Source of the DNA: Vicinamibacterales bacterium
GTDB lineage: Bacteria; Acidobacteriota; Vicinamibacteria; Vicinamibacterales; SCN-69-37
Length of the DNA stretch: 64,000 nucleotides
Assembly (NCBI GenBank): GCA_030827135.1
Contig: JAURFE010000001.1
Span: forward strand, 1,124,368 to 1,188,367
Direction of reading: 5' to 3'
Below the pieces are notes generated by a model. That model was given only the letters and a program-made list of their open reading frames with translations. It made no database searches and was not told the origin of the DNA. This document shows positions 26,383 through 62,005 of this stretch, piece after piece. The position numbers and the translations under genes were made by a program. The first letter of the stretch is position 1; each line of letters starts with the position of its first letter.

Positions 26383-27737
26383 CAGGCACCGGCCCACGAC
26401 GCCAGCGTGTCGAGCGCACGGGCACTCGTCGCGAGTTGGCGGTCGCTCTTGCTCCTGGGCGGAGCATCGAGTGGCGGCATGATACCGAACGTGATGTTCG
26501 TCGGGTTATAGTGCGCCGGGTCGGCGTGCGACACGTAGTACGCCAGGGCGCCAATGGCTGTGGTGCGCGGGGCCGGGCGGGGATCACGCCCCAGCGACAC
26601 CAGCGCGGCGTTCCGCCCGGCAATCAGGCCCGATGCGGCGGACTCCACGTACCCCTCGACGCCCGAGACCTGCCCCGCGAAGAACAGATCGGGCCGCGAA
26701 CGCGCCTGCCACGTGTCGGTCAACACGGTTGGACCATTGATATAGGTGTTGCGATGAATCATGCCGAAGCGCACAAACTCCGCGCGTTCGAGGCCGGGGA
26801 TCATCCTCAATACGCGCGCCTGTTCCCCCCACTTCATCTGCGTCTGAAAACCCACAAGACTGTAGTGATCACCAGCGAGCGTATCCTGCCGCAGCTGAAC
26901 CACGGCATATGCCCAACGCCCCGTCGCCGGCACATCAAGACCGGCAGGCTTCATCGGACCAAATCGCAGCGTGTCCACCCCCCGATGCGCCATCACCTCA
27001 ATCGGCAGACAGCCCTCGAAGAACTTCGTGTTGTCGATGTCGTGGCCTTCGGTCTTCTCCGCCGTGACGATCGCCTGATGAAAGGCGATGTACTCGTCTT
27101 TGGTGAAGGGACAGTTCAGGTAATCGCCGTCGGACAAGACGTCGGGTGTCTTGTCCGACGGCGTCTGTCCCCGCAGCGAGCGATTCCACCTCGACGCGCG
27201 GAACACCTTCGACATGTCGATGGATTCGGCGAGCACGATCGGGCTGATGGCGTCGAAAAACGCCAGGTGATCACGCCCGACAAACGCGGCGATGTCAGCC
27301 GACAGCGCATCCGACGTCAGCGGACCTGTGGCGACGATGACGGGGCTGTCGGGAGACGATGGCGGAATGGATGTCAGCTCACCGCGCTCCACGCGGATGC
27401 GCGGATGCGCCTCGATCGCCGCCGTCACACGATCGGCGAACTGATGACGATCGACCGCCAGCGCCGCACCGGCGGGCACACGCACTTCGTCGGCCACGCG
27501 CATAACGAGCGAGCCGAGCCGACGCATTTCCTCCTTGAGCAATCCGACCGCGTTGTCGAGTTTGTCCCCGCGGAACGAGTTGCTGCAGACCAGCTCGGCG
27601 AGCCGGTCCGTCTGGTGCACGGCCGTCGGCCGCACCGGACGCATTTCGTGAATGGTGACGTCCGCCCCCAACGACGCGGCCTGCCACGCGGCCTCGCACC
27701 CCGCCAAGCCACCGCCAATAATTCGTACGTTACCCAC
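26382..27737 (-). CDS. trmFO: TrmFO, folate/FAD-dependent tRNA (uracil-54-C5)-methyltransferase, with inserted hairpin sequence
   Basis: A 451-residue flavoprotein that makes m5U54 in tRNA using methylenetetrahydrofolate. The N-terminal FAD motif is GGGLAGCEAAWQAA, the catalytic-cysteine segment is LVCSNSFRGDKLDNAVGLLK, and the C-terminus holds GQVSGVEGYVESAASGLIAG. I chose GTG 27737, which overlaps the end of topA by eight bases; a longer in-frame start gives an Arg-rich extension read from the topA tail. Between RASRWNRSLR and GDYLNCPF there are about 14 extra residues (GQTPSDKTPDVLSD). They are encoded by a perfect 16-bp-stem hairpin at 27125-27163, where the family normally has only a short loop. 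Confidence 0.94.
   Translation of the reverse strand: MGNVRIIGGGLAGCEAAWQAASLGADVTIHEMRPVRPTAVHQTDRLAELVCSNSFRGDKLDNAVGLLKEEMRRLGSLVMRVADEVRVPAGAALAVDRHQFADRVTAAIEAHPRIRVERGELTSIPPSSPDSPVIVATGPLTSDALSADIAAFVGRDHLAFFDAISPIVLAESIDMSKVFRASRWNRSLRGQTPSDKTPDVLSDGDYLNCPFTKDEYIAFHQAIVTAEKTEGHDIDNTKFFEGCLPIEVMAHRGVDTLRFGPMKPAGLDVPATGRWAYAVVQLRQDTLAGDHYSLVGFQTQMKWGEQARVLRMIPGLERAEFVRFGMIHRNTYINGPTVLTDTWQARSRPDLFFAGQVSGVEGYVESAASGLIAGRNAALVSLGRDPRPAPRTTAIGALAYYVSHADPAHYNPTNITFGIMPPLDAPPRSKSDRQLATSARALDTLASWAGA
27125..27163. repeat. Palindrome copy 2 (family AAGACGTCGGGTGTC) in frame within trmFO
   Basis: A perfect 16-bp inverted repeat: arms CGCCGTCGGACAAGAC and GTCTTGTCCGACGGCG around the loop GTCGGGT. 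It shares AAGACGTCGGGTGTC with the copies at 15925 and 47604, but the outer arms are different and still perfectly paired. It lies inside an open reading frame and keeps the frame. Confidence 0.9.
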
Positions 27738-30435
27738 GTTTCTTCGCTGCGGCCTTCTTGGCAACAGCCTTCTTGGCAACAACCTTCTTGGCAACGATCT
27801 TCTTCGCCACGGTCTTCCTGGCGGGTCCACCCCGCTTCGGCTTCTTTTTTGCCGGGGTCACACCGCGCCGCTCGTCGAGCAGCCTCGCGGCCTGCTCGAG
27901 CGTCACGTCTTCAATGGCCGTACCTTTGGGCAACGACGCGTTGGTCGTCCCGTCCGAGCAGTAGGGGCCATACCGCCCGTCCTTGATCACGATCGGCGCA
28001 CTGGAGACCGGGTCGGGACCAAGCGTCCGGATTGGGGCCTGTGAGGCGCCCCCGCCACCTCGACGGTAACTCTTGGGTTGCGCGTAAATCGCGCGCGCTT
28101 CGTCAATTGTGATGGCGAACAACTGGTCCTCGGTCTTCAGGTTGCGATAGTCCGGCTTGGGCGCATCCGGAATCTGCTTCGCGAGATACGGACCAAAGCG
28201 GCCCAGCGCCGCCGTAATCGGATTGCCGTCCACGTCGTTGCCCAGTTGCCGGGGCAGCGACAGCAGCTTGAGTGCCTGCTCAAGCGTGACTGACTTTGGA
28301 CTCATCGACTTGAGCAGGGATGCCCGCTTGGGTTTGGGCCCCTCCTTGCCAGGGTCAATGCCCAGCTGCACATAGGGCCCGAAACGACCCGTTCGCAGAA
28401 ACACCGGTTCACCGTTGTTGTCGTGCCCGAGCGGTTCCTCGGCCTGGCTCGCCGTGGCGATCAACTCGGCAGCCTTCTCCATGGTGATTTCGTCCGGCGC
28501 CAGCCCCTCAGGCACACTCGCGCGCGACTCGCCAAACTCGATATAGGGTCCAAATCGGCCGACGCGCAAATTGAGAGGAATGCCGTTCTTCATCCCCAGC
28601 GGGATGGTGCCAATCACCTTGGGATCAATGTCGGTTGCCCGCTTGTTGACGATGGCGTGCAGGCCTGGATTGGAGCCGCGGTAGAAGCGCTCGAGGAAGG
28701 TATTGCGCTTGAGTTCGCCCCGCGCAATCGCGTCAAGGTCATCTTCCATTCCGGCCGTGAAGGAATAGTCCACCAGCGCCGGTTCAAGCGCAGTCATCAG
28801 GTGGACCACGGCGAAGGCCAGCGGGGTCGGCACCAGCGCCGCGCCGCGCTTGCCCACATACTCACGATCAATGATCGTGGCGATGATGCTCGCGTAGGTC
28901 GACGGCCGGCCGATCCCGAGTTCTTCGAGTCGCTGCACCAACCCGGCTTCCGTGTAGCGCGCCGGTGGTTTGGTGCTGTGCCCGGCGGGCGACGCTTCGG
29001 CCACACGCGCGGCGTCACCAGGCACAAGCGCCGGAAGCACATCCTCCTGATCCTCGGTGCGATCGACGACTTCCGCTTCGTCACGACCTTCCACGTACGC
29101 CCGAAGAAATCCGTCAAACAACACGGTGCGCCCCCGCGCCACCAGTTCGGCGCTGCCACCTGCGTTCAATGTGGCATCGAAGGTGGCCGTGACACTCTTC
29201 ATGCGGGCGTCCGCCATCTGCGATGCGACCGTGCGCTTCCAGATCAGATCATAGACGCGCGCTTCATCGGTGCCCATTTCGCGTTCGACCGCATCGGGAT
29301 CCAGAAACGTCTCGCCGGCGGGACGAATCGCCTCGTGGGCTTCCTGCGCATTGCGCGACTTGCCCTCCCAGGTACGAGGCGTCTTGGGCAGATACTCGGC
29401 GCCGTACCGGCTGGTCACCAGGCTTCGCGCGGCCTGCACCGCCTGCCCGGACAGCGACGTGCTGTCGGTTCGCATGTAGGTGATGAAGCCGTTTTCGTAC
29501 AGCCGCTGGGCGGCCTGCATGGCGCGCCTGGCGGTCATGCCCAGCTTGCGGCCGGCTTCCTGCTGAAAGGTTGACGTCGTGAACGGCGCCTTGGGCGATG
29601 ACCCGTACTCCTTCTCCTCGACCGACCGCACGCGCGCGGATTGTCCTCGAAGGCCCTCGGCCAGAGTGGTGGCGCGTGCCTGGTCGAGCACCACGACCTT
29701 CTTGCCGGCCGTCAGTGTTCCGTCGGACCCGAAGTCACGCCCCTGTGCCAGCACCTGGCCATCAAGCGAAATCACCTGCGCCTTGAAGCGCATGGCTTTG
29801 TGTTCGAGTGTGATGTTGGCGTCCCACCACGCCGCAGGGGTGAACGCCATGCGTTCTTTTTCGCGTTCAACGATCAGGCGCGTGGCAACGCTCTGCACGC
29901 GTCCGGCCGATAGACGCGGCGCAATCTTGCGCCACAACACCGGACTTACTTCGTAGCCATACAGACGGTCGAGGATTCTTCTGGCCTCTTGCGCATCCAC
30001 CAGCCGAGTGTCCACATCCCGGCAATCGTCGAGCGCCGCCTGGATGGCCGCTTTGGTGATTTCATGGAAGACCATGCGCTTCACGGGCACCTTCGGCTGC
30101 AGCAGCTCCGCCAAATGCCACGAGATCGCTTCACCTTCGCGGTCTTCGTCCGTGGCCAGGTACAAGGCACTGGCGTCCTTGAGTTTGGCCTTCAGTTCCC
30201 GAATCTTCGCCTTCTTTTCCTGCGGCACCACATAGAGCGGCGCATAGCCATCGTCGACGTTGACACCCAGCCGAGCCCAAGCCTCTCCCTTCAACGCAGC
30301 GGGAATCTCCGCGGCAGAGCCCGGCAGGTCGCGCACATGACCAATCGAGGCTTCAACAACCCAGTCTTTTCCGAGGAATTTTGAGATGGTCTTCGCTTTG
30401 GCGGGCGATTCCACGATCACGAGCGGCTTTGACAT
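27730..30435 (-). CDS. topA: DNA topoisomerase I with Lys/Ala-rich C-terminal tail
   Basis: A 901-residue type IA topoisomerase that relaxes negative supercoils. The Toprim domain opens with PLVIVESPAKAKTISKFLG and carries LATDEDREGEAISWHL. The active-site tyrosine lies in GFITYMRTDSTSLS. The C-terminal domain has at least four GRFGPY-type repeats (GRFGPYIEFG, GRFGPYVQLG, GRFGPYLAKQ, GRYGPYCSDG) rather than cysteine zinc ribbons. It ends with a basic tail of VAKK-type repeats, like histone H1 or HU tails. I chose ATG 30435 rather than GTG 30441. It lies between dprA and trmFO in a conserved order. Confidence 0.95.
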   Translation of the reverse strand: MSKPLVIVESPAKAKTISKFLGKDWVVEASIGHVRDLPGSAAEIPAALKGEAWARLGVNVDDGYAPLYVVPQEKKAKIRELKAKLKDASALYLATDEDREGEAISWHLAELLQPKVPVKRMVFHEITKAAIQAALDDCRDVDTRLVDAQEARRILDRLYGYEVSPVLWRKIAPRLSAGRVQSVATRLIVEREKERMAFTPAAWWDANITLEHKAMRFKAQVISLDGQVLAQGRDFGSDGTLTAGKKVVVLDQARATTLAEGLRGQSARVRSVEEKEYGSSPKAPFTTSTFQQEAGRKLGMTARRAMQAAQRLYENGFITYMRTDSTSLSGQAVQAARSLVTSRYGAEYLPKTPRTWEGKSRNAQEAHEAIRPAGETFLDPDAVEREMGTDEARVYDLIWKRTVASQMADARMKSVTATFDATLNAGGSAELVARGRTVLFDGFLRAYVEGRDEAEVVDRTEDQEDVLPALVPGDAARVAEASPAGHSTKPPARYTEAGLVQRLEELGIGRPSTYASIIATIIDREYVGKRGAALVPTPLAFAVVHLMTALEPALVDYSFTAGMEDDLDAIARGELKRNTFLERFYRGSNPGLHAIVNKRATDIDPKVIGTIPLGMKNGIPLNLRVGRFGPYIEFGESRASVPEGLAPDEITMEKAAELIATASQAEEPLGHDNNGEPVFLRTGRFGPYVQLGIDPGKEGPKPKRASLLKSMSPKSVTLEQALKLLSLPRQLGNDVDGNPITAALGRFGPYLAKQIPDAPKPDYRNLKTEDQLFAITIDEARAIYAQPKSYRRGGGGASQAPIRTLGPDPVSSAPIVIKDGRYGPYCSDGTTNASLPKGTAIEDVTLEQAARLLDERRGVTPAKKKPKRGGPARKTVAKKIVAKKVVAKKAVAKKAAAKKRG

Positions 30436-30482
30436 TGCCACTCACCGTGGCCTAATCAAGGGCATTGCGTCAAGCAGCCGCG

Positions 30483-35170: not shown

Positions 35171-35184
35171 GGACAGGGAGTTGC

Positions 35185-35676
35185 ATGAGTAAATCGCCAG
35201 CGAAGAAAGCCGTCAAGAAGGCCGTCAAGAAGGTCGCGAAAAAGGTTGTCGCGAAGAAGGTTGTCGCGAAAAAGACCGTCGCCAGGAAGGTCGTCGCGAA
35301 GAAAGCCGCGCCGAAGAAGCCCGCGACACCCCGATTGCCGGCGGATCTCAAGCTCGCGATTGCGTGCGCACAGGACAAGCAGGCCATCGACCTCACCGTG
35401 CTCGACTTGCGCAACGCGTCGGCCTTCACCGACTTCTTCGTCGTCTGCACAGGCGCCAACACCAAACAGGTGCAGGCCATTGCGGACGCCGTGCAGGCCG
35501 GCCTCAAAGCGGCGGGTCAACCGGCCGCACTGGTCGAGGGCTACAGCCGTGGCGAGTGGATCCTGCTCGATTACTTCACGTTCATCGTGCACGTCTTCCT
35601 GCCGGCGCAGCGCACGTTCTACGCGCTGGAACGGCTGTGGGGTGGGGCTGAATCGATCGAAGTTTCTGAAGACTGA
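35185..35676 (+). CDS. rsfS: Ribosomal silencing factor RsfS with a histone-H1-like lysine-rich N-terminal tail
   Basis: A 163-residue protein. The C-terminal 110 residues are a normal RsfS/Iojap domain (LKLAIACAQDKQAIDLTVLD, FTDFFVVCTGANTKQVQAIA, YSRGEWILLDYFTFIVHVF). RsfS binds uL14 and blocks subunit joining in starved cells. It is preceded by about 45 residues made almost only of Lys, Ala and Val (KKAVKKAVKK, VAKKVVAKK). This tail is absent from ordinary RsfS and closely resembles the tail on TopA in this window. The ATG at 35185 follows GGGAG, so the tail is translated. Confidence 0.92.
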   Translation: MSKSPAKKAVKKAVKKVAKKVVAKKVVAKKTVARKVVAKKAAPKKPATPRLPADLKLAIACAQDKQAIDLTVLDLRNASAFTDFFVVCTGANTKQVQAIADAVQAGLKAAGQPAALVEGYSRGEWILLDYFTFIVHVFLPAQRTFYALERLWGGAESIEVSED

Positions 35677-55058: not shown

Positions 55059-55978
55059 CAGACCGGTTCCGCCGCCCGGGGATCGACGATGATTCGGAGC
55101 ACGTCGGCCACCACATTACCGACGGCGAGACAAACGGCTCCTGCGACCACGCAGCCGGCGACGAGACTCACGTCGCTCTGCAGGACGGCGTCATACAGCA
55201 GGCGGCCAAGTCCGGGCCACGATGTCACCAACTCCACGGCCAGGGAACCGCTGAAGAGACTGCCCAGCACGATGCCATACACACCGAGCACCGGCCGCAG
55301 CGATTGACGGGCGGCGTGCCGCCACACCAGCCGGGCGGGAGGAATGCCACGGGCAGCGGCCGCCACCAGATCAGGGGACGCCATCGTCTCTGCGGTGGCC
55401 TGCGATTGCAGGCGCTCAAGGACTGCGGCCACGGGCAGCCCGAGGGCGATGGCCGGCAGGACCAGTGCGCCCGGGGCGATCGACAGCAGGCCGGTCGAGA
55501 CCGCAATGAACATGAGCAGGAGCGCGGCGACCAGGGGCGGACACGCCACCAGCGCCAGTGAAAGCGGCGCAATCAGGCGTGACACCCAGTGCCGGGGCCA
55601 CGCCCCGGTCACGATGCCCAGCGGCACCCCGATGAGCGTCGCAAGCAGCACCGCCGTCGCCGCGAGGCGCGCCGTGTTGAGGCCGCGCTCAAACACCAGG
55701 GCGCTGACGGGCCGCTGGAACGACGAGGACTCACCGAGATCGAACCGCACCACCCCCGACACCCACCGGCCGAGTTGCACGACAAGGGGGTCGTCCAGTC
55801 CGAGTCGGTCCCGCTTGGCCGCAATGCTTCCGGCATCGATACCGGCGATGAAATCTGCGGTCGTCTCGTCCCCTGGCGCCAGACGCGCGATGACGTAGGC
55901 GGCGGTTGACGCCACGAAGACGAACACAAGCGCCGCGACCACTCGGCGCGCGAGAAAGACGACGAACGACCGGCTCAC
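55058..55978 (-). CDS. Peptide-type ABC transporter permease (DppB-like)
   Basis: A 306-residue protein. The start FVVFLARRVVAALVFVFVAS is typical of DppB/OppB. DPLVVQLGRWVSGVVRFDLG and SSFQRPVSALVFERGLNTAR lead into the permease core. The ATPase-contact segment is DLVAAAARGIPPARLVWRHA, and ELVTSWPGLGRLLYDAVLQS is the common C-terminal block. GTG 55978 overlaps the binding-protein gene stop (GTGA). It pairs with the DppC-like permease to form the membrane channel. Confidence 0.92.
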   Translation of the reverse strand: MSRSFVVFLARRVVAALVFVFVASTAAYVIARLAPGDETTADFIAGIDAGSIAAKRDRLGLDDPLVVQLGRWVSGVVRFDLGESSSFQRPVSALVFERGLNTARLAATAVLLATLIGVPLGIVTGAWPRHWVSRLIAPLSLALVACPPLVAALLLMFIAVSTGLLSIAPGALVLPAIALGLPVAAVLERLQSQATAETMASPDLVAAAARGIPPARLVWRHAARQSLRPVLGVYGIVLGSLFSGSLAVELVTSWPGLGRLLYDAVLQSDVSLVAGCVVAGAVCLAVGNVVADVLRIIVDPRAAEPV

Positions 55979-57708
55979 CGCCCTCCGTCCGCGAGGTGAA
56001 TCCGCTCTGCGTTCCAGAGCACGGGCGGGAAGAAGATGATGGGCGTCGCGCCGCGCACACGGCCACTGACGGCGACGATGGCGCGAGGGGCCACAAACCA
56101 GAGGGCCGGCATCTGATCGGCCAGGATGCGTTGCGCGGCATCGAACAACCGACGGCGCATTGCGGGATCGGTCGTCACCGACTGCTGCTGCATCAGTTCG
56201 TCGACCCGCGCCTCCCAGGGCGTCGCCGGCGTGACCTGCCCGGGGTGCCACCAGTGGAAGGCGCCGGAACTCATCCAGAACGACAGACTGCCGACGGGAT
56301 CTCGTGTGGTGGCGCGCCCGCCGAAGTAGATCGCATCAAAATCTCCCGCGGTGTAGCGCGTGATGATTTCATTGGCCGGCAGCGCCACCACATCCATCGT
56401 GATGCCGACCTGCCGGAGATGCTCCTGCACGACCGCCATGGTTTTTTCAAACGCCGGCTGGCCGCTTCGTGTGAGCACAGAGAATCGCACCGGTTGATTC
56501 CGGGCGTCGTCGAGCATCCCGTCACCATTGCGATCGGACAGCCCCATCGATGTCAACAGCGTGCGTGCGCGGCCAGCGTCAAATGCCGCCGCCGGCAGGT
56601 CGGGCACATACCAATCGCCGTGCCCGGGCGTGACCGGCCCGTACGCGACCATCGCTTCCCCAAGAAACACCGTGTCGACGATCGCCTGCCGGTTCACGGC
56701 ATGCGAGATCGCACGACGGAACTCGGGGGCCACGAGCCAGGGGCGGCCCGCGCCGGCCTTGGCGTCCGGGCGCAGATTGAACCAGAACGTGGTGACGTCG
56801 ATCGCCGGCCCGGCGTCGGTCAACCGGATGCGCCCGCTCGCTGCACTCTGCCGGAGCACGGCGAGATCATCGGCGCTGACGAAGTTCGTGATGACATCCG
56901 CGTCGCCCGACTGCAGCCGCAGCAGTTCGGTGTTCGCTTCGGGGACGATCGTCATGTCGATCTCATCCAGATACGGCAGCGGGATGCCGGCGTCGTCGCG
57001 TCCGAAGAAGTGGGGGTTGCGCGCGAACAGCAACCGCTGTCCCGGCACGTATTCCTTCAGAACGAAGGGGCCGGCGCCGACGATCTCAGCCGGCGCGACG
57101 GTCGCCGCCCACACCGTGGCTACCGTACCAGCCGTCACTGCGGCTTCCAATTTGTGCTGGGGGAGAATAGGCAGGTTCTCGAGCACATTGAGGCCGGGTC
57201 CGTAGGGAGCCGGGAACGTCAGCACCAGTGTGCGGTCGTCCAGCGCGCGGACGGTGACAGGTTGGCCGTCGACCTTCAGATCGGCGCCGGCGGGCGTCCC
57301 CAACGCCGCACGCACGGAAAACACGACGTCAGCAGAGGTGACCGGCCGCCCGTCCGAAAATTTCGCATCCGGTCGCAGTTCGATCGTCCACGCGAGGCCG
57401 TCGTCGGAAGAGGACCACTTGGCGGCGAGTCGGGCTTCAAAGCTCCCCGTGGCGTCGGTTCGCAACAGGGTGGCCTGGGTCAGGCTGCTGAACATCAGGT
57501 TCGCCGCCGTGGGCTGGGCAATTCTGAGGAAATTTGTGGGTTCGGTCGAATAGGTCGCCAAAAGGCGCCCTCCTGGCGTCGGTGCGGCAGAATCGGGAGT
57601 TGCGACCGGTTGTGGGGTACCACCCGACCAGGCGAACCAGCCAACGGCGGCCAGAACGACCAGGAGCCCCCCAAGGAGGGCTGGGCGGAGGGTTCGGGAT
57701 TCGGCCAT
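55975..57708 (-). CDS. Peptide-type ABC transporter substrate-binding protein (family 5)
   Basis: A 577-residue protein. An N-terminal hydrophobic anchor or signal (ALLGGLLVVLAAVGWFAWSG) lacks an obvious lipobox Cys. The family 5 body follows: LAAKWSSSDDGLAWTIELRP, DAKFSDGRPVTSADVVFSV and LPYLDEIDMTIVPEANTELL. EFRRAISHAVNRQAIVDTVF is strongly typical of DppA/OppA. A short DRNGDGMLDD stretch resembles a calcium-binding loop. It is the first gene of the apparent operon; ATG 57708 follows GAGGTGAC. Confidence 0.92.
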   Translation of the reverse strand: MAESRTLRPALLGGLLVVLAAVGWFAWSGGTPQPVATPDSAAPTPGGRLLATYSTEPTNFLRIAQPTAANLMFSSLTQATLLRTDATGSFEARLAAKWSSSDDGLAWTIELRPDAKFSDGRPVTSADVVFSVRAALGTPAGADLKVDGQPVTVRALDDRTLVLTFPAPYGPGLNVLENLPILPQHKLEAAVTAGTVATVWAATVAPAEIVGAGPFVLKEYVPGQRLLFARNPHFFGRDDAGIPLPYLDEIDMTIVPEANTELLRLQSGDADVITNFVSADDLAVLRQSAASGRIRLTDAGPAIDVTTFWFNLRPDAKAGAGRPWLVAPEFRRAISHAVNRQAIVDTVFLGEAMVAYGPVTPGHGDWYVPDLPAAAFDAGRARTLLTSMGLSDRNGDGMLDDARNQPVRFSVLTRSGQPAFEKTMAVVQEHLRQVGITMDVVALPANEIITRYTAGDFDAIYFGGRATTRDPVGSLSFWMSSGAFHWWHPGQVTPATPWEARVDELMQQQSVTTDPAMRRRLFDAAQRILADQMPALWFVAPRAIVAVSGRVRGATPIIFFPPVLWNAERIHLADGGR

Positions 57709-58018: not shown

Positions 58019-59899
58019 ATGAGCGTCATCTTTTCAATGACCCGTCGCCATCTGCTTCTGCCCCGAATGGGAGCCGCCCTGCTGGGGCTGTTCCTGGTCG
58101 CCGTGGTGCTAGCTCCCGTGCAGGCGGAAGCCGGCGGCAATTACCGCGGCAAGATGTCGAAGGAATTTGCCGCCAAGATTGACCGTGCGCTCAACGGACC
58201 CTCCGTGAGTGCCGAGAGGTTCCAGTTCATCCTGATTGCCCCGCAGTCGGAAGTTGACCGCATCGGCCAGAAGTACGGTCTTCCGCTCATGAAGCGGATG
58301 ATCGCCGGCGGTGTGTTTTTGGGGACCGCGACGCAGATTGCGGCTGTGACCCTTGAACCGCAGGTCAAAAGCGTTTCTGAAAACGTGCGCGTGTATTCGA
58401 TGGCGGCGGTGACGGCACAGGCGATTGGTGCCGACCAGGTGTGGACGGGGACGCAGGGGGCGGCGTTTGGTGGCGTCACCGGGCGCGGCGTTGGTGTGGC
58501 GGTCCTTGATTCTGGGATCGCGAACCATCCTGACCTGGTCAACCGGGTTGGCGCTCGTCTGGACTTCACCGGGACTGGTGGGGTGCGGTGGGGCGGCGTG
58601 GATGACTACGGCCACGGCACGCACGTGGCGAGCATCATTGCAGGCAGTGGTGAGGGCAGCCGGACGTGGCAGCGGGGCCACCCGTCGGCGTCCACGACGG
58701 CTGCGTACATCGGCATGGCGCCGGGTGCGACGCTCATCAGTGCCAAGGTCCTGAGCGCTGACGGGTCCGGGTATGTGGCGGACGTCATTGACGCGATTTA
58801 TTTCTTCGCGCGCTACAAGGAATTTTTCGGGGTGCGGGTTGTCAACCTGTCCCTGGGGCATCCGGCGGCAGAGCCCTACCGTAACGACCCCCTCGCGATT
58901 GCCGTTGAGGACGCGGTCAGGGCGGGACTTGTGGTGGTGGCCTCGGCCGGTAATCTGGGCGTGACGCCGGCTCCAGAAAGCAAGCCTATCGTGGGCGCGA
59001 TTGTGTCCCCCGGCTTTACGCCAGGTGCCTTGACGGTTGGCGCGCTCAACACCAACGGCACGGTGTTCCGGAGCGACGACTCGGTGGCGTCATTCAGTTC
59101 GTCGGGTCCGGTCGTGGATCCCGGTACGCCTGCGCCGCAGACGCCCGACGCCTTGCCGGCGAATGCGTTGATGAAGCCGGACCTTGTGGCGCCAGGCAAC
59201 GGCATTGTGGCGGCTGTTTCGAGCGGCACGACGTTGTGGGAGGGCCATCCGACGCGTCAGGTGATCGGGGCCCGCGGCGGCACCTACATGAAGTTGTCGG
59301 GCACGAGCATGTCGACGGCGGTGGTCTCTGGTTCCGTGGCGTTGCTGTTGCAGGCGCGCCCTGACCTGACGCCCTACGAAGTCAAGACGGCGCTGCAGTT
59401 GACCGCGCAGCATATTCCTGGCGTTGGCCTCATCAAGCAGGGGGCCGGCAGCCTCAACGTGGCGCTCGCGGTGCGCTTCGCGAAGAGCCGCAACATCAGC
59501 AAGATCGACCTCACCAACACCATCGGCGGCGAATCCGCGTGGGCCAGTGGCATCACGTTCGGCCAAGCGTCCACGTGGGGCCAGACGTTGGTCTGGGACA
59601 ACACTTTGGTGTGGGACAACGCAAACGGTGGCATCCCAGGACACACGTTCCTCTGGGGCGAGACGTTGGTGTGGGATAACACCTTGGTCTGGGACAACAC
59701 TTTGGTGTGGGACAACACCCTAGTCTGGGATAACACCTTGGTCTGGGATAACGCTCACATTTGGGGCAAGACACTGGTGTGGGATAACACCTTGGTCTGG
59801 GACAACACCCTAGTCTGGGACAACAACGTGTTCTGGGGCCAGACTTTGGTGTGGGATAACACCCTCGTGTGGGATAACACCTTGGTCTGGGACAACTAG
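58019..59899 (+). CDS. S8 (subtilisin-like) serine protease with a C-terminal TLVWDN hexapeptide-repeat tail
   Basis: A 626-residue exported protease. Signal peptide (LLGLFLVAVVLAPVQAEAGG), then a propeptide-like domain (ERFQFILIAPQSEVDRIGQK). The catalytic domain has Asp in VAVLDSGIANHPDL, His in YGHGTHVASIIAG, the oxyanion Asn in VVVASAGNLG and Ser in LSGTSMSTAVVSGSVALLL. All catalytic residues are present. From about residue 523 the protein turns into repeats of TLVWDN (13 copies) interrupted by GHTFLWG, HIWG and VFWG, and ends exactly at WDN. Acidobacterial proteases with VWG-type tails come to mind from general knowledge, but I cannot verify a match. The tail may be a surface or secretion module. 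Confidence 0.92.
   Translation: MSVIFSMTRRHLLLPRMGAALLGLFLVAVVLAPVQAEAGGNYRGKMSKEFAAKIDRALNGPSVSAERFQFILIAPQSEVDRIGQKYGLPLMKRMIAGGVFLGTATQIAAVTLEPQVKSVSENVRVYSMAAVTAQAIGADQVWTGTQGAAFGGVTGRGVGVAVLDSGIANHPDLVNRVGARLDFTGTGGVRWGGVDDYGHGTHVASIIAGSGEGSRTWQRGHPSASTTAAYIGMAPGATLISAKVLSADGSGYVADVIDAIYFFARYKEFFGVRVVNLSLGHPAAEPYRNDPLAIAVEDAVRAGLVVVASAGNLGVTPAPESKPIVGAIVSPGFTPGALTVGALNTNGTVFRSDDSVASFSSSGPVVDPGTPAPQTPDALPANALMKPDLVAPGNGIVAAVSSGTTLWEGHPTRQVIGARGGTYMKLSGTSMSTAVVSGSVALLLQARPDLTPYEVKTALQLTAQHIPGVGLIKQGAGSLNVALAVRFAKSRNISKIDLTNTIGGESAWASGITFGQASTWGQTLVWDNTLVWDNANGGIPGHTFLWGETLVWDNTLVWDNTLVWDNTLVWDNTLVWDNAHIWGKTLVWDNTLVWDNTLVWDNNVFWGQTLVWDNTLVWDNTLVWDN
59585..59896 (+). repeat. 18-bp coding tandem repeat (TLVWDN) array
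   Basis: Thirteen 18-bp units, in blocks of 2, 5, 3 and 3, are separated by three longer spacers. Units differ mostly at synonymous positions (ACC/ACT, TTG/CTA/CTC, GTC/GTG, GAC/GAT), so the protein sequence is more uniform than the DNA. That points to selection on the protein. Confidence 0.9.
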
Positions 59900-60055: not shown

Positions 60056-62005
60056 ATGGCGTCCCCGCCTCGCTCGGATCCCCCGTGGACATCCCGCCTT
60101 TATATCGGCGCCGTCGTAGTTGCCGGTCTCGCCGTTTCCGTTGGTAGCGTTCGTGCCCTAATCGTCTCTCCTCCTCCTGGAGATTGGTATTGGCTGACAC
60201 TGCTGACGCTGATCAGCGGCCTCCTCTCAGTCAAGTTCCAAGCAGTAGGTGCTAGGTACTCGGTCTCCGAGACATTTGTCATGTGGGGCACTCTGGTATA
60301 TGGCCCCGCGGTCGGCACCGTCTTGGTTCTGCTGGACGCGACCGTCCTCTCTGGCAAGATCTGGCATTCAAGACGAAAACTGGACTGGACCAGAACCCAG
60401 TTCAATTTGGCTGCACCACCCCTTTCCTTATGGCTGGCCGCCCTTGCGCTCTTCTCGATCGCTGGCCCGCCCCCACTCGACCTCGTTGCATCTCCGACTA
60501 GGTTCGTTCTGGGCTTGGCTGCCTTTGCGGTCCTTTACTTCCTGATCAACTCGACACTTGTTGCTGTGGCCATCGCGGTGACACAACCCCTGGGGCACTC
60601 GAACTTCCTGAGGGACTTCAAGACAACTTGGTGGGGTATTCGAGATGGCTTTCTGACCTATTTCGCTGGTGCCTCGATTGCGGCTTTGCTTGCCTCAGGA
60701 GGGAACCAGGGTGTCCTAAGCAAGATCCCCGTCATTGTCCCGTTGATGGCGATGCTCTTCTTGAATTATCGAAACTCTGCGCGGCGAGTAGACGAGATGC
60801 AGGGAAGACTCGATGCCATCGAGAAGGTTCACATGGCTACGATCACTGCGTTCGCCATGGCAATCGACGCCAAGGACCAGGTCACCCATGGTCATATCCG
60901 CCGCGTGCAGCAATATACGATGGAGGTCGCCAGGTCACTTGGCGTAACTGACGACAAACAACTCAAGGCACTTGAGGCTGCTGCTCTCCTTCACGACACG
61001 GGCAAGCTGGCGGTCCCAGAGTACATTCTGAACAAACCAGGCCCACTGACTCCGGCTGAATTCGAGAAGATGAAAGACCACGCGGCCGTCGGAGCAAACA
61101 TCCTCAAGAGTATTGATTTTCCATACCCGGTGGCGCCAATTGTTAGGCACCACCATGAGAGCTGGGATGGCCGAGGTTACCCTGATGGCTTGAAGGGACA
61201 GGAAATCCCCATCGGCGCGAGAATCCTCTCCGTAGTGGATTGCTACGATGCGCTCACATCTGATCGCCCCTACCGACCGAGAATGACCCGCCAACAAGCC
61301 GAACAAATCCTACAGGATCGCCGAGGCGCGATGTACGACCCTTGGGTGGTCGATGGATTCATTCGGATACTCGATAAGTTGGAGGCGATCGACGAGGCGG
61401 AAGGTCGCCATGCGCTGGCGCACTCAGGAGAGAGCGGCGCCTTTGCAAGCCCAGCCCTTGAGGTAATCAGCGCGGCAACGGCGGAAGAGCGAGAGTTTGC
61501 AGATCTCCGCCGAGAGTTGCCCAAAACACAAGGCATCGAGCTTGCGGCAGAGGTATTCTTTCGCCATGTTCGCCGGGTCATCCCGGCTGCAGCGGTCGTT
61601 CTTTATACTCCGCAGCCAGGTAACTCAGACCTGAAGGTGAGCTATTGTGCTGGGTCGGGTGCCAGTACTATTGAATCAACTACGATTCCGGTGGGGGAGC
61701 GAATCTCTGGATGGGCCTTCGCACACCGCCAGGTCGTATTCAATTCGGATGCATCGCTTGACCTCGGACCCGTGGCGAGAACTCTTCCCGTTCCGCTTCG
61801 CGCGGCACTGGTTGTCCCAATCTATGAAGGCAATACGTCCCTCGCTGTGCTCACGCTATATGGCAGCGAAGACTTTCAGCGGGACCACCGCCGAATGCTT
61901 GAATCCGCGGCCCAATTGTTCCTCAGCGCAGGTTCGTTAGGGAGTGTCTCGGCCACACAGAACCGGCCTCCCTCCGCGCAATTGGTCGAGCGCAAGATCC
62001 ATTAA
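60056..62005 (+). CDS. Membrane HD-GYP domain protein with C-terminal GAF-like domain
   Basis: A 649-residue protein. About six membrane helices fill residues 15-240. The HD-GYP domain follows, with HD in LLHDTGKLAVPEYILNKPGP and the GYP block HHHESWDGRGYPDGLKG, plus ILSVVDCYDALTSDRPYRP. A C-terminal GAF-like domain covers about residues 490-640 (VPVGERISGWAFAHRQVVFN after ESTT, ALVVPIYEGNTSLAVLTLYG). HD-GYP proteins usually cut cyclic di-GMP; all motif residues are present. Its GC content is visibly lower than most of the window, with more A/T-ending codons. Upstream, 59900-60055 holds nothing recognisable. Confidence 0.92.
   Translation: MASPPRSDPPWTSRLYIGAVVVAGLAVSVGSVRALIVSPPPGDWYWLTLLTLISGLLSVKFQAVGARYSVSETFVMWGTLVYGPAVGTVLVLLDATVLSGKIWHSRRKLDWTRTQFNLAAPPLSLWLAALALFSIAGPPPLDLVASPTRFVLGLAAFAVLYFLINSTLVAVAIAVTQPLGHSNFLRDFKTTWWGIRDGFLTYFAGASIAALLASGGNQGVLSKIPVIVPLMAMLFLNYRNSARRVDEMQGRLDAIEKVHMATITAFAMAIDAKDQVTHGHIRRVQQYTMEVARSLGVTDDKQLKALEAAALLHDTGKLAVPEYILNKPGPLTPAEFEKMKDHAAVGANILKSIDFPYPVAPIVRHHHESWDGRGYPDGLKGQEIPIGARILSVVDCYDALTSDRPYRPRMTRQQAEQILQDRRGAMYDPWVVDGFIRILDKLEAIDEAEGRHALAHSGESGAFASPALEVISAATAEEREFADLRRELPKTQGIELAAEVFFRHVRRVIPAAAVVLYTPQPGNSDLKVSYCAGSGASTIESTTIPVGERISGWAFAHRQVVFNSDASLDLGPVARTLPVPLRAALVVPIYEGNTSLAVLTLYGSEDFQRDHRRMLESAAQLFLSAGSLGSVSATQNRPPSAQLVERKIH

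Follow-up and report, generated by a model that had tools for sequence, protein, structure and literature searches.

The protease gene and its neighbours

The window, that is, the whole stretch of 64,000 nucleotides analysed here, carries on its forward strand a gene for an S8 (subtilase) serine protease, the C-terminal ~110 residues of which form a tandem repeat tail (Table 1). PF00082 was the only Pfam domain recognised in this protein (residues 155–464, E=5e-48, 164.3 bits against a gathering score of 21.8), and the catalytic motifs DSG (D164), GHGTH (H199) and GTSMS (S430) were intact, so the uninterrupted open reading frame does encode the complete subtilisin that had been proposed for this locus. 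On the strength of the PF00082 score and the Asp/His/Ser triad, the protein can be assigned to the S8 family and is predicted to be active. It is also probably exported, and the signal peptide may be of the Tat type, to judge by the TRRHLLL string that it contains. The source genome (3.24 Mb, 80 contigs) encodes three S8 proteases, but only this one has the tail, the other two ending without it.

Table 1. Features of the protease locus (positions in the window)
Feature	Position	Strand	Description and evidence
Family 5 extracellular solute-binding protein (ABC transporter)	55975..57708	-	divergent, upstream; PF00496 2.6e-76; tblastn of flanks
S8 (subtilase) serine protease gene, 626 aa	58019..59899	+	signal peptide, prodomain-like region, catalytic domain, repeat tail
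N-terminal signal peptide	58019..58132	+	hydrophobic helix, residues 16-31 (sequence; secondary structure of AlphaFold2 model)
N-terminal prodomain-like region, residues ~48-128	58160..58402	+	mostly pLDDT 82-97; structural match to pro-subtilisins
Peptidase_S8 catalytic domain, D164/H199/S430	58481..59410	+	PF00082; motifs conserved in 35-row alignment
Repeat tail	59567..59896	+	ASTWGQ-(TLVWDN)2-[ANGGIPGH]-TFLWGE-(TLVWDN)5-AHIWGK-(TLVWDN)3-NVFWGQ-(TLVWDN)3, up to stop codon
ANGGIPGH insertion in tail	59621..59644	+	8 residues; sole non-hexad insertion
HD-GYP gene, predicted c-di-GMP phosphodiesterase	60056..62005	+	membrane N-terminus (MASE9-like) + HD-GYP + GAF; PF13487, PF13185; synteny

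The AlphaFold2 model of the full protease was confident across most of residues 45–510. The nearest solved structure was that of Tk-SP from Thermococcus kodakarensis (ProN-Tk-SP, PDB 3afg; structural match E 3.9e-30), a protein that also ranked in the top two by sequence (4.8e-39). Both proteins have an N-terminal propeptide or prodomain and a catalytic domain with the D/H/S motifs, but the match to Tk-SP stops ahead of the tail. The divergent gene for the family 5 solute-binding protein is kept beside the S8 gene in many relatives.

Architecture of the tail and selection on its unit

The tail comprises 17 hexads, 13 of them identical (TLVWDN) and four of them variants (ASTWGQ at 59567, TFLWGE at 59645, AHIWGK at 59753 and NVFWGQ at 59825) that remain in register, with the tryptophan at every sixth residue kept throughout. 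TRF placed an 18-bp array at exactly 59585–59896 (score 181, 17.0 copies); these coordinates and the count of 13 TLVWDN copies are identical to those of the original prediction, and the tandem pattern, which matched the tail of the protease, gave no match in 100 shuffles. The three spacers of the original prediction need to be redescribed, since they contain in-register variant hexads (TFLWGE, AHIWGK and NVFWGQ) and only one true insertion, ANGGIPGH. The fourth variant hexad, ASTWGQ, opens the array and moves its start to 59567. No model in Pfam or NCBIfam covered the tail, which therefore matched no characterised domain in these databases, and no description of it was found in the literature searched for the motif and for acidobacterial S8 tails, in agreement with the earlier statement that a functional description was lacking; a comparative paper on Acidobacteria mentions S8 peptidases only in relation to nitrogen acquisition.

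At the DNA level, the 13 TLVWDN units correspond to 10 distinct 18-mers without a single amino-acid difference. Second positions were invariant and third positions differed by 2.2 per pair, all changes being synonymous. As only 10 of the 54 possible single-base changes of this unit are synonymous, it is very unlikely that at least nine changes would all be synonymous by chance (~0.185^9, a rough figure, since gene conversion between units is possible). The existence of 10 DNA variants of one peptide thus supports purifying selection on the unit peptide, as had been suggested from the third-position differences. Other tails had similarly diverged at synonymous sites with almost no replacement (pS 0.75 and pN 0 in L264; 0.64 and 0 in L291; 0.57 and 0.003 in L277), and tails with units such as RIIWSD, TIVWSD, NFVWNN and AIIWGH, among others, had pS values of 0.5–0.75 at pN 0. 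The median pN/pS ratio over 92 tails was 0.24.

Distribution and diversity of the tails

A search of 60 relatives recovered homologues in 41 of them. When the phylum was scanned with a strict DNA pattern for tandem hexads, 15 of 396 genomes matched, every one of them from the same order; the pattern reversed, used as a control, matched none. Across 84,980 species genomes, the strict pattern identified 109 stretches; the 80 listed were mostly from Acidobacteriota, including Bryobacterales and Thermoanaerobaculia, with some from Gammaproteobacteria (Halieaceae, Pseudomonadales), and a few of them lay in bins of other phyla and may be due to contamination or chance. A sequence search of the genome-contig collection yielded no close relatives, although the strict DNA pattern did match there, and tblastn against plasmids returned only S8 matches, all of them below 60% identity and short of 80% query coverage. 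In viral contigs, a loose tandem pattern gave 120 stretches, all of which proved on translation to be repeats of microsatellite type, with no tails among them.

The tail was restricted to S8 proteases. PF00082 was present in 77 of 78 tail-bearing ORFs (at least 300 aa, without masked stretches) and no other domain recurred, indicating that the tail is an S8 accessory and answering the question, raised in the original prediction, of which partner domains such tails might have. In the members examined it lies at or near the C-terminus. Homologous tails share a core of two hydrophobic residues, a tryptophan and a small or acidic residue, hereafter referred to as a bead, with a variable linker. 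The unit differs between genes and its period ranges from 6 to 14 residues, including 6-mers (TLVWGN, TIIWGD, RIVWGN, GIAWSD), the 8-mer SDSIFWGQ, the 12-mer LFGDDSIVWSGS and the 14-mer AIIWGHRSTAVDPN. A tree of 98 S8 catalytic domains requires about 35 changes of the first bead residue. Close relatives within the genus have TLVWDN or TMVWDN units. Random copy number and frameshifts among close strains had been named in advance as evidence that would count against a functional tail; copy number does differ between these relatives, but the frame is kept except at the very end of one tail. The homologues come mostly from draft metagenome assemblies, in which tandem arrays break contigs, several of them inside the array.

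Some tails end in conserved sequences. An INxWVxQE-like C-terminus was conserved in L187, L198, L203, L205, L216, L220 and L241, and also in L246, L248, L261, L279, L286 and L292, all of the F/L-x-W-N/S-D bead subclass, which occurs in Acidobacteriota and Gammaproteobacteria. Another subclass (L214, L224 and L243) ends in N(S/T)DVWAxLTFP. These C-termini could be caps or sorting signals. The RIVW repeat of archaeal surface proteins has the R-I-V-W string in common with some beads, but it is 42 residues long (PMC2447325), as opposed to the tandem hexads found here.

A conserved gene pair with an HD-GYP protein

The main new result of this analysis is that the gene pair is conserved, and not the tail alone. 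The gene downstream from the protease starts 156 bases past its stop codon, and no terminator-like site was found in the intergenic stretch. Its product matched PF13487 (6e-43, 146.9 bits) and PF13185 (GAF_2, 2e-8) and contains both the HD motif (LLHDTGK) and the HHE...GYP motif (HHHESWDGRGYPDGLKG), consistent with a canonical HD-GYP c-di-GMP phosphodiesterase that is probably active. The N-terminal membrane region is described as MASE9-like, since PF20972 (MASE9, gathering score 24.3) did not match the HD-GYP protein of the window and its homologues scored 11.5–22.8 bits; one histidine kinase in a tail locus reached 24.8 bits.

A bead-tailed S8 gene lay directly upstream, on the same strand, in 17 of the 30 best-matching HD-GYP loci, our source genome included, and at least 20 S8–HD-GYP pairs were identified from coordinates. 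By eye from the sequence, lower-scoring HD-GYP paralogues are instead often found behind regulators of the NtrC/Fis type. In seven genomes, 19 of 21 bead-tailed S8 genes (at least four beads) had HD-GYP or GNAT in the flank, whereas three clearly tail-less S8 genes had neither; for minus-strand genes this count records presence in the 1.5-kb flank only, with the downstream position confirmed for several by the tree scan. HD-GYP neighbours occur in several S8 subclades, and the starred branches of the 98-domain tree force at least nine label changes. The automatic scan assigned neither partner to 35 of 76 labelled S8 rows, but it misses some cases, such as the EAL genes behind L189 and L225. 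Gene neighbourhood is partly a matter of shared descent, so these counts represent few independent events. In four close relatives (G003, G005, G011 and G012), no HD-GYP homologue was detected at E<=1e-60, but there the contig stops at the S8 gene or shortly past it and may hide a linked partner. At the thresholds used, neither the tailed S8 nor the HD-GYP homologue was found in two genomes of the same genus, G004 (100% complete) and G006, or in G009 of the same family, a double absence that would fit if both genes had been lost or gained together.

In other subclades, a GNAT acetyltransferase is encoded downstream from the S8 gene (a cluster of 18 loci), and 13 of 90 neighbours of tails matched Acetyltransf_3. 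The GNAT gene is sometimes followed by HD-GYP (L210, L247) or by a MASE9 histidine kinase (L188). The S8 genes with N/R-type beads at L188, L253, L280, L282, L234, L269 and L275 have a GNAT gene behind them within a few bases, and S8–GNAT–S8 runs were observed at L234, L269 and L275. In some members of the F-x-W-N-D class, the genes within a few bases downstream encode GGDEF-EAL proteins (L189, L248 and L286, the last assigned from its near identity to L248 in size and cluster); in others they encode two-component propeller proteins (L203, L272) or, at L225, an FHA-EAL protein.

Possible roles of the tail

From the observed anatomy of the protease, the selection on the unit, the occurrence of the tail on S8 proteases only and the conserved gene order, we infer that the tail may be a multivalent Trp-bead device by which the enzyme binds to a surface, a matrix or a partner as part of a c-di-GMP-linked module. 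This reading, with which the surface anchoring raised in the original prediction is compatible, is the one we favour, although we would place it somewhat short of an even chance. The protease would be made as a pro-form and exported as a subtilisin-like enzyme, with its tail as a string of Trp-centred beads, each with a core of two hydrophobic residues, a tryptophan, a small or Asp residue and a polar residue. Many weak, identical bead contacts, whether with the cell envelope, a glycan of the matrix, a partner protein or one another, would act by avidity and hold the enzyme in place outside the cytoplasm, such that proteolysis would take place at or near the cell. That the Trp bead is kept while linker and period vary is what separate beads on a string would lead one to expect, more than a single rigid fold would, and AlphaFold2 left the tail unfolded. 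However, the first bead position is stricter within a gene than a generic sticky tail would need. The protease would belong to one module with the membrane-bound HD-GYP phosphodiesterase and its MASE9-like sensor, which suggests that extracellular proteolysis is coupled to a lifestyle or biofilm decision. LapG and LapD offer a parallel, in that there too a protease outside the cytoplasm has a genetic link to a c-di-GMP protein. The protease of that system, LapG, is a cysteine protease of the transglutaminase-like type, and LapD is a c-di-GMP receptor with degenerate GGDEF and EAL domains, whereas the pair described here consists of an S8 protease and a canonical HD-GYP protein, the coupling of which is putative.

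Three alternatives retain some weight. In order of decreasing likelihood, the tail could form a beta-stack, serve as an export sequence that is cleaved, or be the source of a peptide signal. The original prediction had raised a beta-solenoid, and the beads might indeed fold into a left-handed beta-helix-like or cross-beta rod, each hexad forming a four-residue strand and a two-residue turn; such a rod could act as a rigid stalk or self-assemble into a fibre. The motif T-x-[VI]-W-D-N has the same form as the hexapeptide [STAV]-x-[LIV]-G-x-x, and residues that are identical throughout a gene would be well suited to stacking in ladders. In a phmmer search of the PDB with the tail, nearly all matches were left-handed beta-helix proteins with weak E values (0.004–2), as they were with TIIWGD, and the reversed tail gave few, mixed matches. 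There were also matches below cut-off to PF00132 (Hexapep, 0.015) and LbH_EIF2B (0.11) and weak NCBIfam matches to YdcK, LpxD and a beta-strand repeat. However, PF00132 scored only 15.4 bits on the tail, against a gathering score of 27, and a V/L-swapped control outscored the real tail; the Hexapep similarity is thus not specific, and we did not file the tail with the hexapeptide-repeat proteins. It shares with them a six-residue periodicity, a strand–turn pattern and weak sequence similarity, but Trp replaces Gly, the period is not fixed in homologues and no fold is predicted. AlphaFold2 left the tail unfolded in both settings, with a pLDDT of about 25 in the full-length model and, for the tail alone with 26 in-register tails as input, a pLDDT of 34 and a pTM of 0.20. 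A three-sided left-handed coil of 18 residues was thus not recovered as a solenoid (pLDDT 25–34), although such low confidence is not final. With perfect repeats, AlphaFold2 tends to predict beta-solenoids too readily (32 of 78 random repeats; PMC11795689), so its failure to do so here speaks mildly against a solenoid that folds autonomously. The occurrence of periods of 8, 12 and 14 residues, besides 6, would not fit a strict hexad solenoid. What stands of the solenoid proposal is that the weak matches are nearly all to left-handed beta-helices, and we consider a beta-stack unlikely overall.

Slightly less likely again is a C-terminal pro-sequence serving outer-membrane export or timely maturation and then cut off. 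The terminal position of the tail would fit, as would the INxWVxQE-like ending of one subclass, which resembles what a sorting or processing signal might look like, but copy number and linker vary widely among relatives, which would be unusual for an export signal, and some tails run on into Pro-rich linkers. We know of no Trp-bead repeats in the C-terminal extensions of secreted Gram-negative subtilases such as AprV5. AprV5 of Dichelobacter nodosus is likewise a secreted S8 protease of a diderm with a C-terminal region beyond the catalytic domain, and deletion of this extension delays processing (PMC3480457), whereas any role of the bead tail is putative. We regard it as improbable, with roughly half the weight of a beta-stack, that the tail is a tandem precursor from which the protease releases identical hexapeptides to be sensed by the membrane domain of its HD-GYP partner. 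Protease and precursor would then be on one chain with a membrane sensor in the adjoining gene, and a peptide signal might leave units that stay identical inside one gene, despite divergence of their synonymous sites, but turn over between genes. If so, the MASE9-like domain would read hexapeptides and convert extracellular proteolysis into a c-di-GMP signal, with enzyme, precursor and receptor in two adjacent genes. Against this, units are mixed within many tails (NIVWGD, NIVWGS and NIVWGN in L253), there is no recognisable constant cleavage site, and many family members adjoin GNAT or no sensor. The W-x-N/D of most beads resembles the three-residue cyclophane motif of triceptides and could make the tail a substrate for RiPP-like modification by a radical-SAM cyclophane-forming enzyme. 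However, radical SAM proteins did not recur among the neighbours of tails, and SPASM-domain proteins numbered zero in the source genome, whereas 8 of 14 control genomes encode one, which nearly excludes this reading; we rejected it. Just as implausible is a functionless array left by neutral repeat slippage. Close relatives differ in copy number and such tails interrupt contigs, which would fit slippage, and copy number itself may drift, but the synonymous-only differences between TLVWDN units and the similar pattern in many other tails led us to reject slippage for the unit sequence, and the tail is maintained throughout an order and further.

Multivalent binding thus remains our preferred reading. 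The tails appear to represent an unnamed C-terminal family specific to a large S8 clade in Acidobacteriota, an abundant but little understood soil phylum, and gene order ties them both to a GNAT acetyltransferase and to the turnover of c-di-GMP, through HD-GYP and, in some members, EAL proteins. Should the functional coupling of the S8 and HD-GYP proteins be real, it would link extracellular protein degradation to a biofilm or lifestyle decision.

Other repeat-bearing ORFs in the window

Short repeats were also observed at the ends of two other ORFs in the window. The ORF at 35180–35673 (+), which by eye looks like a ribosome-silencing factor, has a basic N-terminal extension of Lys/Ala/Val repeats (KKAVKKVAKKVVAKK...), with arrays at 35203–35319. 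The ORF at 27733–30441 (-), which by eye looks like a topoisomerase I, has a short repetitive C-terminal end with 15-bp units at 27750–27822.
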